From the NCBI GenBank assembly GCA_017436785.1, contig JAFSCK010000024.1, forward strand, positions 88,204 through 152,203: a DNA stretch of 64,000 nt, written 5' to 3'. Under the pieces are notes generated by a model. That model ran no database searches, was not told where the DNA came from, and saw nothing but the letters and a program-made list of their open reading frames with translations. The stretch is from Oscillospiraceae bacterium. GTDB lineage: Bacteria; Bacillota; Clostridia; Oscillospirales; Oscillospiraceae. A program made the translations under genes and the position numbers. Position 1 is the stretch's first letter. Every line of letters begins with the position of its first letter. Below, one piece after another: positions 43,742 through 54,215 of the stretch.

Positions 43742-43985
43742 AAAATAAAAATTGGACCGCTTCGTCAAGCGATCCGACAGTGGGTGCAATAAATACAAAG
43801 ACGCATATTGCGGCACTGCTTCGATAGCGCTTCACAAAGTTTGTGACAGTCCGGCAGATATTCTCTGACGAACCAGCAAACAGAAATCAGGCGTTCTGCT
43901 CACTTCGGCGGTATTCCCTTTCCCTCCGGGCGGTTGCCTGACCTTGCCCGGCGGTACTGATGAAGCCCGCGCCTCTATCTAGCGA
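43742..43985 (-). ncRNA. lysine riboswitch with intrinsic terminator
   Basis: The minus-strand leader contains the L-box hallmarks in order: AGATAGAGGCGCG (about 43968-43980), CATCAGTACCGC, a GGGAAAGG...GCCGAAG segment, TTGCTGG and GGACTGTCACAAAC (about 43838). A terminator follows (43754-43775, arms GGATCGCTT/AAGCGGTCC with T run 43742-43753). Family knowledge: lysine binding favours termination, so the importer is repressed when lysine is abundant. Confidence 0.9.
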
Positions 43986-52031: not shown

Positions 52032-52108
52032 GGAGGCTTAGCTCAGCTGGTTAGAGCGCATGCTTCACACGCATGAGGTCACAGGTTCGAGTCCCGTAGT
52101 CTCCACCA
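52032..52108 (+). tRNA. tRNA-Val (anticodon CAC), CCA encoded
   Basis: Acceptor GGAGGCT/AGTCTCC, D arm GCTCAGCTGGTTAGAGC, anticodon stem CATGC/GCATG with loop TTCACAC (anticodon CAC), T arm AGGTTCGAGTCC, discriminator A and CCA. It reads GUG codons. Confidence 0.95.
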
Positions 52109-52110
52109 AA

Positions 52111-52151
52111 AAAGAAGTAACTTTTGTCTACCAAAAGTTACTTCTTTTTTT
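52111..52151 (+). terminator. terminator of tRNA-Val(CAC)
   Basis: Stem AAAGAAGTAACTTTTG/CAAAAGTTACTTCTTT followed by TTTTA. Confidence 0.9.
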
Positions 52152-52153
52152 AT

Positions 52154-52338
52154 CCAAGCCGCAGGCTTGGCATATCATCGCCGCACGAAGTGCGGTGCAT
52201 ATCATCAAGGTCGGCAAGCCGACCTTGTATCTCATCACGCGCCAGCGTGTATTTTTCCTGCGGCTTGATGAGATGCAACACTGTGTGTTGATGATATGCA
52301 ATTCCGACGGAATTGATGATATACAAGGCTTCACCTTG
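52154..52338. repeat. fishbone array of nested hairpins (six side hairpins on a segmented stem)
   Basis: Three left segments CATATCATC (52171-52179), CATATCATC (52198-52206) and TATCTCATC (52228-52236) can pair with right segments GATGATATA (52315-52323), GATGATATG (52290-52298) and GATGAGATG (52267-52275). Between consecutive segments each strand carries a small perfect hairpin: 52154-52170, 52179-52197 and 52206-52227 on the left; 52276-52290, 52299-52315 and 52324-52338 on the right; another (52237-52250) sits in the apical loop. Side-hairpin stems differ in sequence while the 9-nt stem segments are conserved. The right-most hairpin runs into the promoter of the following gene. Confidence 0.85.
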
Positions 52339-52364
52339 ATTTGTTTACGGAAAAGCAGTATAAT
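52336..52364 (+). promoter_or_regulatory. promoter of the four-helix-bundle gene, at the edge of the hairpin array
   Basis: TTGATT (52336-52341), 17 bases, TATAAT (52359-52364). The -35 overlaps the last base-paired hairpin of the array, so array folding or binding could affect transcription. Confidence 0.7.
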
Positions 52365-52385
52365 TCTCTTGGAAGGAGTGGTTTT

Positions 52386-52733
52386 ATGTCTAAGAACTAT
52401 TTGCTGATATATTCTGAGCAGCTTGCAACAGAAATAGAATTGCTTTGTCAAAACATAAAGGCATCATCTAACACTCTTTTCCAGATCCGTAAAAGTTCAA
52501 GCAGCGTTTATGCCAATATTCGCGAAGCCAATTACGGTCAAAGTAAAGCGGATATGCTGTCTAAATTTGAAATTGCACTTAAAGAATGCAGTGAAACCGA
52601 AGGATGGTTACAGTTGTTGTTTAATACACAGGCGATAAACGAGGAAACATTCAAATCTCATCGTAATCTTTGTGGTCGCATCAGACGAATGTTAATTGCA
52701 AGTTGCAAAACATTGAAGGAGAATGCAAAATGA
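52386..52733 (+). CDS. four-helix-bundle protein (Avd / S23-IVS family)
   Basis: A 115-residue, almost wholly helical protein matching the four-helix-bundle family that includes the diversity-generating-retroelement accessory protein Avd and proteins encoded in 23S rRNA intervening sequences: the core SSVYANIREANYGQSKADM followed by FEIALKECSETEGWL and a final helix. Family members bind nucleic acid. ATG 52386 follows GGAAGGAG. AT-rich, unlike the flanks; it directly follows the hairpin array. No reverse transcriptase or variable repeat is present, so it is not a DGR. Confidence 0.82.
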   Translation: MSKNYLLIYSEQLATEIELLCQNIKASSNTLFQIRKSSSSVYANIREANYGQSKADMLSKFEIALKECSETEGWLQLLFNTQAINEETFKSHRNLCGRIRRMLIASCKTLKENAK

Positions 52734-53092
52734 AAAAGAAAGTGATACTTATAATTGTTATTGTTGGTATTTTAATTCCAGCCGTACTTTGGGCATCGGC
52801 TCTAATCAAATGTGAGATACTTACGCAAAAATATTATGATGATTTTAAACAAGCGTATACACAAAATACAACGCTTGGAGAAATGGAATATTTCAAAGTA
52901 TTAAGCTGCGACGAAAATATAGCCGAGGTCTATTATGTCAGCAAAGGTATGACAGACGCCAATGTATTAACATTCGAAAACAACAATGGCGTATGGCAAG
53001 AAATATCTTGGAAAACAATTTGGTCTACATCGGGAAGTGCATCCGAAGTTATATATCCATATTGGTGGCACTTTATTTACGGCGGATTATAA
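52730..53092 (+). CDS. small membrane-anchored protein of unknown function
   Basis: No family recognised. The 120-residue product has one N-terminal transmembrane helix (about residues 4-24, KKVILIIVIVGILIPAVLWA) and an outer domain with many aromatics (EIYP-like SEVIYPYWWHFIYGGL end). ATG overlaps the stop of the four-helix-bundle gene (ATGA), with GAAGGAG upstream, so the two form an operon. AT-rich codon use like its partner. The shape (helix plus small DUF-like domain) resembles immunity or sensor proteins, but nothing specific is supported. Confidence 0.7.
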   Translation: MKKKVILIIVIVGILIPAVLWASALIKCEILTQKYYDDFKQAYTQNTTLGEMEYFKVLSCDENIAEVYYVSKGMTDANVLTFENNNGVWQEISWKTIWSTSGSASEVIYPYWWHFIYGGL

Positions 53093-53157
53093 TTGTTATA
53101 CTACTTTTAGTATTTCTTACCCCTATTTACACTACTTTTAGTCGCTCTTTCGCAAAC

Positions 53158-53188
53158 AAAAACCCCGTCCGAAAGGATGGGGTTTTTT
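53158..53188. terminator. bidirectional terminator after the AT-rich islet
   Basis: Stem AACCCCGTCC/GGATGGGGTT with GAAA loop, flanked by A and T runs. Confidence 0.85.
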
Positions 53189-53212
53189 GTTTGGTATCGG
53201 CATTCAGACAAG

Positions 53213-53274
53213 GGACTCGAACCCATTTATATGGAGGTGTCGGTGGACACTTTCTGCCACCGGGTCAAAAAACT
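53213..53274. repeat. two-hairpin intergenic element, copy 2
   Basis: GGACTCGAACCCAT followed 29 bases later by GGTGGACACTTTCTGCCACC and GGGTCAAAAAACTG. It aligns with 11192-11259 in order and spacing. Both copies lie 3' of a terminator behind a tRNA-Val islet; GGACTCGAACCC is the complement of a tRNA T arm. The first hairpin stem differs by paired changes (AGGTGTC/GACACTT here, AAGGCTCC/GGAGCCTT there). Confidence 0.55.
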
Positions 53275-53308
53275 GAACATCTGCATAGTCTTGCCTCACC
53301 AGTCAAAA

Positions 53309-53337
53309 TTGACACACCTTGTCTGCCGTGATACACT
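53309..53337 (+). promoter_or_regulatory. promoter of the PHP-isomerase-peptidase operon
   Basis: TTGACA (53309-53314), 17 bases, TACACT (53332-53337), 60 bases before the GTG start. Confidence 0.65.
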
Positions 53338-53396
53338 TGTTACAAGTAGGCACATGCGATAGATTATGCAAAAAATCGTGCCGGGTGAGGTGCTTT

Positions 53397-54215
53397 GTGA
53401 AATTACAGAATCTTCACACCCATACCAGCTTCTGTGACGGCAAAAACAGCATTGCGCAGATCGTCCAATCCGCCATTGACTTGGGAATGTCCTCCATCGG
53501 CTTGAGCGGCCATGCTGCCCTGCCTTTTCCTTGCAGCTGGGCGATGAAAGCGGAAGATGTCCCTTTATACTATACAGAGGCACGAAGGCAGCAGGCGCTT
53601 TTTGCCGGGAAAATTCCGGTTTATGTAGGCATTGAGCAGGATTACTACTCGCCAACGCCGGCGTATCCCTACGAATACATCATTGGTGGCGTGCACTATG
53701 TCAAAAAGAATGATCGGAATTATTCCATGGATCATTCTGCGCAAGCGCTGATGGACGCCGCCAAAGAAAGTTACGGCGGAGATCTTTACGGCCTTGCGGA
53801 GGATTACTATGCCACCGTCGCAAAGGTCGCAGACAAAACCGGTTGTCAGATCGTTGCCCACTTTGATCTGATCTGCAAGCATAATCAGGATGACTGCCTG
53901 TTTGATACCAATCACCCTCGTTATAGGACGGCTGCGCTGGATGCATTGGATGCCCTGTGCGGCAAGGATCTGATTTTCGAGATCAACACCGGTGCCATGT
54001 CCAGAGGGGTTCGAACCACACCTTATCCTGACAAAAAACTGCTTTTGGCTATGCGGCAGCGGAATCTGCCTATCTGCATTTGCGCCGATTCCCATAGCGC
54101 AAACACTTTGCTTTACGCCTTTCGGGAAGCAGCAGAACTGGCAAGAAGCTGCGGCTACAAAGAATGTATGTACTGGGACGGTAAACACTTTTACCCCGAT
54201 CAGCTTCCCTTTTAG
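53397..54215 (+). CDS. PHP-domain phosphatase, histidinol-phosphatase (HisK) type
   Basis: A 272-residue PHP-superfamily enzyme: LHTHTSFCDGKNS, GLSGHA, YVGIEQDYY, IIGGVHYV, VAHFDLICK, FEINTGAM and CADSHSANT give the trinuclear metal site. The start is GTG 53397, six bases after GAGGTG. By family it may be histidinol-phosphatase, but it is not in a his operon; its neighbours (isomerase, M20 peptidase) suggest use on another phosphate ester. Confidence 0.87.
   Translation: MKLQNLHTHTSFCDGKNSIAQIVQSAIDLGMSSIGLSGHAALPFPCSWAMKAEDVPLYYTEARRQQALFAGKIPVYVGIEQDYYSPTPAYPYEYIIGGVHYVKKNDRNYSMDHSAQALMDAAKESYGGDLYGLAEDYYATVAKVADKTGCQIVAHFDLICKHNQDDCLFDTNHPRYRTAALDALDALCGKDLIFEINTGAMSRGVRTTPYPDKKLLLAMRQRNLPICICADSHSANTLLYAFREAAELARSCGYKECMYWDGKHFYPDQLPF

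Follow-up and report, generated by a model that had tools for sequence, protein, structure and literature searches.

The locus described here raises the question of what kind of element combines a branched array of hairpins with a gene for a four-helix-bundle protein (4HB) and lies directly behind a tRNA gene. The window, i.e., the whole stretch of DNA analyzed, comprises 64,000 nt of an Oscillospiraceae bacterium (GCA_017436785.1, contig JAFSCK010000024.1, positions 88,204 to 152,203 of the forward strand), whose genome is a contaminated MAG (7.3%; SfsA matches n = 3). Between tRNA-Val and a 4HB gene of the S23/IVP type, it contains the word GATGATATRC three times in inverted and three times in direct orientation, with unrelated self-complementary hairpins between the copies, an arrangement that we refer to as a fishbone array (Table 1). 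An initial annotation, made from the letters of this stretch, had proposed that array and gene form one inserted unit; both do belong to it, but the leader in front of the array and the stretch behind the gene had been overlooked.

Table 1. Features of the unit and its insertion site in the window.
Feature	Positions	Strand	Remarks
tRNA-Val(CAC), host target	52032..52108	+	unit begins directly 3′ of CCA
Whole unit	about 52109-53154		order: leader hairpin, array, promoter, 4HB, coupled passenger, 3′ block
Leader, first part of unit	52109..52151	+	A-run, ~19-bp hairpin, T-run; BLASTN match to L034 begins at 52109
Fishbone array	52154..52338	+	
Side hairpins H1 to H4	52154-52170, 52180-52196, 52207-52226, 52237-52248		
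Side hairpins H5 to H7	52277-52289, 52300-52314, 52325-52337		
Left stem repeats	52170..52236	-	GATGATATGC, GATGATATGC, GATGAGATAC
Left word copies	52170-52179, 52197-52206, 52227-52236	-	one change in the last
Right stem repeats	52267..52324	+	GATGAGATGC, GATGATATGC, GATGATATAC
Right word copies	52267-52276, 52290-52299, 52315-52324	+	one change in the first
S1	52156..52165	+	5′ arm and loop of H1; complementary to S1′
S1′	52257..52266	+	array-centre segment; complementary to S1
Promoter-like pair TTGATT-17-TATAAT	52336..52364	+	-35 within last hairpin
S23/IVP four-helix-bundle gene (4HB), 115 aa	52386..52733	+	PF05635, TIGR02436
Passenger gene, 120 aa	52730..53092	+	no family match; start overlaps 4HB stop (ATGA)
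3′ end block	53096..53154	+	two CTACTTTTAGT-type copies; final letters CTCTTTCGCA
Native tRNA-Val terminator (host)	53155..53193	+	displaced by unit; matches empty site L116

Structure and Sequence Variation of the Array

The word copies and hairpins listed for the array in the initial annotation were all found at their positions, and the array stretch folded as RNA with -88.4 kcal/mol, as compared to -56.2 kcal/mol (SD 4.2) for shuffled sequences (z = -7.7; none of 200 shuffles as good); folded as DNA, the minus strand reached z = -8.1, again with 0 of 200 shuffles as good. The scheme by which left and right stem words pair was correct as well, but it lacked a further complementarity, between S1 and S1′ in the array centre. 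Across 67 arrays of type A, the family to which the window belongs, 641 of 670 S1:S1′ positions formed Watson-Crick pairs (at most 558 with shuffled partners), and 214 of 240 positions were paired in the 24 distinct combinations (shuffled, at most 186). Because S1, the repeats, S1′, and the inverse repeats follow each other in this order, a fishbone with closed H1 and the S1:S1′ pairing are either mutually exclusive, or S1:S1′ forms a pseudoknot with the repeat stem. This covariation, along with the use of other stem words in other families, supports the reading of the stem as a selected structure. The side hairpins of type-A arrays vary in number and length.

Stem words differ between 4HB clades (ATGATAT, GTTATAT, GTGAAAT, TGAAATC, ATGAATTG, GCGATAT, and others), and the left words were the reverse complements of the right words in every array read. 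When mapped on a tree of 74 proteins, the word labels (merged by hand; 13 classes, 40 labelled rows) required 12 changes, the minimum, as compared to 19 changes for the host-genus label. With all groups and unlabelled rows included (the latter containing loci with arrays missed by the automatic search, and splitting labels H and N), 20 changes were required, against a mean of 38.9 after shuffling (0 of 200 as low); this agreement between word and clade can arise from linkage alone. One clade of 13 rows presented no detected arrays and no tRNA neighbours.

A strict array detector, which misses the array of the window due to its TATCTC variant, identified 38 arrays in the 755 kb of sequence surrounding 4HB genes; three Markov-resampled copies of these sequences yielded none. 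The type-A pattern was present in 16 of 147 genomes of the order, with a single hit in the 147 genomes for the reversed pattern. Parsing of 38 type-A loci yielded 28 with arrays, in 34 rows including three repeats, i.e., 31 distinct arrays. Two other identities were considered for the array and rejected: a riboswitch or other known RNA, as no Rfam match lies there, and a CRISPR-like array, as the spacers are palindromic and the orientation of the repeats switches at the centre. The window does contain a lysine riboswitch elsewhere (43817-43985, minus strand, 103.9 bits).

The Unit Is Inserted between a tRNA Gene and Its Terminator

A congener locus (L116) with the same SfsA-tRNA-Val(CAC) context carries the CCA of the tRNA followed directly by AACAAAAAACCCATCCGAAAGGATGGG..., which in the window is found 3′ of the unit; the unit thus sits between the CCA end of the tRNA and the native terminator, in agreement with the proposed insertion of one unit behind tRNA-Val. 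The two junctions share only CAAA, which leaves an uncertainty of up to 4 nt in the position of the unit's edge. This empty site is a single clear cross-species case, without observed movement; among 30 SfsA loci, the gene that follows in the window (PHP) was found only at the window's own locus and, weakly, in L124. A terminator scan reported a terminator-like signal at 53158-53187, within the displaced terminator; the leader of the window was absent from the output of the consensus terminator scan. Relatives of the unit provided 62 leaders, 46 of them distinct.

A scan of species genomes yielded 158 relatives, the best 79 of which (86-100% identity) were used as the close set; L143 in this set is the window itself, L145 and L180 are identical to L034 and L035, respectively, and the sets of 79 or 80 rows used here contain the window once or twice. 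The titles of the close loci name Clostridia, Clostridiales, Oscillospiraceae, Ruminococcus, and uncultured bacteria, many from ruminant gut samples. A same-strand tRNA gene (15 isotypes in total) was found within 800 nt upstream in 46 of the 79 loci and a tmRNA gene in two, at a distance of 221-326 nt in 41 of these 48; among the matches listed, units in rows with a tRNA nearly always begin right after the CCA. The remaining loci include eight that begin at a contig edge and 23 without a called tRNA, some of which, among the matches listed, retain a cut tRNA end. In the wider 4HB family, which is present in 36 of 60 related genomes and from whose matches 80 regions were taken after the weakest had been dropped, 36 of 83 genes had a tRNA on the same strand in the 700 nt upstream, as compared to none in the 700 nt downstream; an array was located within 400 nt upstream of 27 of the 83 genes by the strict detector and of 38 by a looser one.

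Over half of the distinct type-A arrays (17 of 31) start no more than 42 nt from the end of a tRNA. Where a tRNA is lacking, some arrays lie at the 3′ ends of protein genes, i.e., those encoding RlmD (L041, L064), GMP synthase (L050), an FtsK-like protein (L063), a TrhP-like protein (L059), and a response regulator (L073). At the 3′ end of rlmD in L041 and L064, and by eye also in L068, the leader has a first arm that is host coding sequence (the VESIVCL region) and differs per host; its second arm is the complement of the first, as though the target had been used as a template for the end.

The boundaries were delineated by BLASTN comparisons of the window with L033, L034, and L035, which carry 4HB genes 89-93% identical to that of the window and represent other families. 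The match to L034 begins with the first letter of the leader, and that to L033, which lies behind tRNA-Glu, starts in the T-arm common to both tRNAs; all three matches stop within 4 nt of the 4HB stop, leaving the passenger gene outside, and positions 53096-53162 match L035 again. Blocks similar to the 3′ block of the window were found in four loci (L035, L054, L078, and L079); two of these, L035 and L078, have the leader of a next unit directly after the block, i.e., the units are in tandem. The 3′ end blocks share CTTTT-GT motifs; a general expression for the 3′ end was found in 3 of 79 loci (control 0), with 3′ ends known for few units.

Further repeats were observed near these sites. A second hairpin-rich repeat, which starts with an inverted, tRNA T-arm-like GGACTCGAACCCATTTA, is present behind tRNA terminators in the genus, at 53195-53400 in the window and behind tRNA-Val or tRNA-Gln in L116, L121, L135, and L139; in some copies a matching piece recurs further on. 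Among the matches listed, L145, L215, and L221 also carry array-only units upstream of the nearest array, with tails that contain T-arm-like GGTTCGAATCC or GGTTCAAATCC and end with approximately GTAGCC..ATAGAC before the next leader. A phage origin of the unit was considered and rejected; no relative was found in viral_contigs, and only two of 50,697 phage records matched, both unannotated human-gut scaffolds. These two phage-labelled scaffolds (L331 and L332), which may be host sequence, each carry a 4HB gene with an upstream fishbone array that matches Gut-1 (described below), and the L331 array lies behind tRNA-Arg.

The 3′ ends of tRNA, tmRNA, rlmD, and guaA genes are of a type that site-specific integrases use. 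Classical integration, in which a recombinase of the tyrosine or serine type, encoded by the host or a phage, acts in trans on the unit ends as att sites and the array serves expression or stability, would fit these targets and the CTTTT-GT motifs common to the end blocks; we regard it as quite improbable, as one lineage is found behind tRNAs with different acceptor ends, the junctions share only CAAA, and an integrase is absent among the ORFs of the unit. We have also considered a regulatory or insulating module that is not mobile by itself, in which the 4HB protein would autoregulate at the array and which would spread by homologous recombination at tRNA islands. The -35 box within the last hairpin, where the initial annotation had correctly placed the start of the promoter, the stem word that tracks the protein clade, and a leader that would stop transcription of the tRNA all suit such a module, but a single lineage of 86-100% identical 4HB proteins behind 15 tRNA isotypes, tandem units, an array-only unit (L263), and the empty site speak against it, making it highly improbable. 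We consider the unit to be probably a mobile cassette, in which the hairpin or heptamer stem is the cis site bound by a ring of 4HB proteins and the joining activity is supplied by the host or in trans.

The Four-Helix-Bundle Protein and Its Coupling to Arrays

Profile searches confirmed that the gene behind the array encodes a four-helix-bundle protein, with matches above the curated cut-offs to PF05635, 23S_rRNA_IVP (E = 5.1e-19, 68.9 bits; cut-off 33.8), and TIGR02436, four helix bundle (E = 9.2e-21, 74.1 bits; cut-off 24), and no match to a catalytic family. The structure model presented four helices (pLDDT 94.8), and its nearest Foldseek matches were 2rld (TM 0.85) and 2gsc, entries with five chains each, followed by Avd (4dwl; E = 0.012, TM 0.81) and Avd within a ribonucleoprotein of diversity-generating retroelements. 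An S23/IVP-type protein of Xanthomonas is described as a pentamer in the available text of PMC4990558.

The close 4HB genes are usually accompanied by an array, as 69 of 80 rows had one that could be parsed (the window entering these rows both as itself and as L143). The reverse does not hold. Most arrays lack a 4HB gene; one was present behind 8 of the 31 type-A arrays and at 3 of the 30 best Gut-1 loci, so that the tight coupling of array and gene assumed in the initial annotation was not confirmed. A predominance of arrays lacking the gene is an outcome that this annotation had itself named as refuting its proposal. The eight type-A arrays with a 4HB gene represent seven genes, one array standing in tandem before another, and nine of the 31 distinct arrays are followed by another ORF at 59-95 nt. 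A 4HB protein at least 85% identical was found in 5 of 15 type-A genomes searched and one of 62-67% identity in two, the others having one of at most 52% or none. With most arrays lacking a 4HB gene and close 4HB proteins in only five of 15 genomes, the 4HB gene could itself be another passenger.

Behind the 4HB gene, an ORF was found near its stop codon in 68 of 79 loci; these ORFs fell into 49 crude clusters, and 40 of the 68 start at position -4. Some of the ORFs that start elsewhere may be host genes, and the passenger ORF of L192 is a piece of 4HB. At most 22 of the 42 cluster representatives scanned (of 49) had any family match, including NUDIX (four representatives) and, with one each, GNAT, HTH, DUF4279, WapI-like immunity, DMP19, YcxB, and others; the passenger of the window has, by eye, a hydrophobic N-terminus. 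Among the matches listed, ends of 4HB genes are retained beside arrays in L256 and L276, and L263 consists of an array and a tail without a gene.

Gut-1 RNA Represents Half of the Array in Other Families

According to the available text of PMC2864571 (Weinberg, 2010), Gut-1 is certainly an RNA, most likely noncoding, and known from the human gut only; this text contains no mention of a second half, tRNA placement, a 4HB gene, or a cassette nature. The Rfam consensus for Gut-1 (RF01706; 77 nt) consists of hairpins separated by GUGAAAU, and in several other 4HB families it corresponds to one half of the fishbone array, namely the left one; the right half is often matched as well, on the other strand. 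RF01706 matched 10 of 20 array loci at E ≤ 0.01, nine of them at or over the gathering score, and the matches in L056 and L044 lie over the array itself. Type-A arrays differ in that L003-L005 had no match at E ≤ 0.01 and the window had none at the gathering score.

Matches to RF01706 were found in 64 of 147 genomes of the order (51 above the cut-off), with up to at least 29 matches per genome, as compared to one of 14 control genomes (none above the cut-off). In the 30 best-scoring loci, a non-random sample with one locus per genome (L333-L362), a tRNA or tmRNA end lies 29-42 nt upstream, a distance equal to the leader length, in 19, and a 4HB gene lies within 700 nt downstream in three. As this sample was chosen without regard to 4HB genes, it supports the rule of placement behind tRNAs and speaks against 4HB as a fixed partner.

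The Array May Act as a DNA Structure

As the promoter lies 3′ of the array, the 4HB transcript should not contain the array. In 69 type-A arrays, side-hairpin pairs included 15 G.T and 11 A.C pairs among 1763; with G.T hardly more common than A.C, and with the promoter behind the array, these two features favor DNA. The loops are mostly triloops; among the loop kinds listed for type A, GNA accounted for 32 and TNC for five of approximately 114 left loops, and TNC, which reads as GNA on the other strand, for 119 of approximately 207 right loops, with no TTCG loops among these kinds. In other families the sides are swapped, with 13 TNC and six GNA among 35 left loops, and 16 GNA and seven TNC among 57 right loops. 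GNA triloops are especially stable in DNA. We lean towards an array that acts as a DNA structure; the authors of the Gut-1 description hold the opposite view in the available text of PMC2864571.

An element acting at the level of RNA, with the array as all or part of a structured RNA read from the tRNA promoter, an Avd-like 4HB, and a reverse transcriptase in trans that inserts copies at the ends of RNA genes, appears unlikely to us, though several observations are in its favor. Gut-1 (RF01706), half of the array elsewhere, is called certainly RNA by its authors (PMC2864571, available text), known S23 ORFs lie within 23S rRNA intervening sequences (PMC4990558, available text), the fold of 4HB resembles that of Avd, and the targets include tRNA and tmRNA genes. 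This contrasts with a promoter downstream of the array, type-A hairpins without a clear excess of G.U, the targeting of protein-gene 3′ ends, and the distribution of reverse transcriptases; PF00078 was detected in 3 of 16 genomes with type-A arrays and not in the other 13, as compared to 41 of 131 other genomes. Neither ORF of the unit, i.e., 4HB and the passenger without a family match, encodes a reverse transcriptase, as the initial annotation had noted, so that a retron or a diversity-generating retroelement was rejected; a reverse transcriptase match (E = 8.6e-12) is located on another contig.

Heptamer Repeats Often Flank Four-Helix-Bundle Genes without Arrays

Array-less 4HB genes showed evidence for tandem repeats of period 7, which near home were found upstream in 16 and downstream in 4 of 36 genes. 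At the loci sampled across the phylum, period 7 was found upstream in 12 and downstream in 9 of 27. In both sets, the other periods from 5 to 10 gave 0 or 1. A tandem-heptamer test upstream was passed by 27 of 50 array-less 4HB loci, comprising 10 plasmid loci (10 of 21 records used; Bacteroidota, Spirochaetota, Cyanobacteriota, and Monoglobus), 27 phylum loci (of 30, leaving out three of the window's own genome), and the 13 rows of the array-less clade. The reverse complement of the heptamers was present downstream in 24 of these 27, and a direct copy in 4 of 27; in controls, shuffled downstream sequence passed once, and periods 6 and 8 never passed upstream. On three of the plasmids (L328, L329, and L330), the heptamer-flanked 4HB gene lies between cas2 and cas1, hsdS and hsdR, and drmD and pglX genes.

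Heptamer repeats with nested hairpins are known from cyanobacteria. The available text of a paper on heptamer repeats (PMC4692102) makes no mention of S23, four-helix proteins, or tRNA. A parallel is the Coxiella rRNA intervening sequence, for which the available text of PMC4990558 describes tandem heptamers (GACAGAT) before the S23 ORF and a 28-bp terminal stem; the product of the S23 ORF has been proposed to serve mobility (Ralph and McClelland, cited in PMC4990558, available text). Taken together, the heptamer data and the Coxiella case suggest that the fishbone resembles a stem of heptamers whose repeats have been separated by hairpins.

A Putative Mobile Cassette

The data establish a defined unit with a precise place, repeated targets, tandem copies, exchanged followers, and a covarying stem. 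In our model, the repeat stem of the array would form a branched structure, either a cruciform or single-stranded, that acts in cis as an end of the unit or as its recognition site. Where the gene is present, the 4HB protein, of the S23/IVP type for which rings are known, would bind the 7-nt-like repeats of this stem. The folded unit may then be copied or inserted behind gene ends by a strand-joining activity of the host or acting in trans. The leader would act as a replacement terminator that spares the tRNA, and the unit's own promoter would drive 4HB and the coupled passenger, while the more numerous copies without a 4HB gene would represent non-autonomous cassettes.

A profile scan of the two ORFs of the unit found no recombinase, transposase, or relaxase. 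The Y1 transposase family (PF01797) was detected in 9 of 16 genomes with type-A arrays (i.e., absent in seven) and in 44 of 131 others; this search for a catalytic partner pointed to no obvious common partner, with neither a reverse transcriptase nor a Y1 transposase being required in present hosts.

More tentatively, and with somewhat more doubt than belief, S23/IVP rings in general may be the mobility or maintenance proteins of mobile elements that form a widespread but unrecognized class and use a stem built from 7-nt repeats as their cis site. In its simplest form, such an element would consist of heptamers, 4HB, and inverted heptamers, with 23S rRNA intervening sequences as the rRNA branch; in the Oscillospirales branch, hairpins would have been placed between the repeats, the stem before the gene, and a passenger cassette added, with Gut-1 as a half stem; this cassette would occupy sites behind tRNA genes without encoding a strand-transfer enzyme.

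S23/IVP proteins have no known function according to the available text of PMC4990558, and the arrangement described here provides a common frame for two orphans, these proteins (with 7-nt repeat stems, and hairpin arrays in gut Clostridia) and Gut-1. The old question of whether and how rRNA intervening sequences move becomes testable in a system that offers an empty site, numerous copies, and genes that vary. If the model is true, a cassette platform that settles behind nearly every tRNA while lacking its own recombinase would provide gut bacteria with a new way of exchanging genes.

Comparison with Known Systems

The suggestion in the initial annotation that no described system has this layout holds for the whole, of which no description was found in the open-licence literature searched, but not for its parts, as a half-array was already in Rfam as Gut-1. 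Among these parts, the protein family and the rRNA intervening sequences had been described before, as had Gut-1 in the form of an orphan motif; the cassette, the rule of placement at tRNA ends, the full array, and the heptamer rule appear to be undescribed. With regard to Gut-1, RF01706 does not match the type-A family of the window but does match arrays of other 4HB clades.

Integron cassettes with their attC sites likewise consist of small interchangeable genes with a folded cis site, arranged in series; the unit differs by its location behind tRNA genes, its own promoter, and the absence of an integrase from its ORFs. REPIN/RAYT and BOX repeats share modular hairpins and copies without a protein gene; the unit differs from them by an ordered array, a covarying stem, an S23 protein in some copies, and placement at tRNA ends. 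Avd of diversity-generating retroelements appears to have the same fold as 4HB in the model comparison, but such retroelements include a reverse transcriptase, which is absent among the ORFs of the unit.

A further likeness is to 23S rRNA intervening sequences, which lie in a gene for a stable RNA and also have an S23/IVP 4HB ORF together with ends that are complementary to each other (PMC4990558, available text). The unit of the window, however, lies outside rRNA, behind an intact tRNA (no rRNA match was found in the window), and has its own promoter, changing passengers, and hairpins between the repeats; moreover, the ORF of an intervening sequence lies in the loop of the end stem, whereas both stem halves of the window lie upstream of the gene. 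An inverted heptamer pair around the gene, as in intervening sequences, was found in 24 of the 50 array-less 4HB loci. If elements of the S23 intervening-sequence kind are counted as the same kind of system, the unit described here would be a very divergent variant of it.
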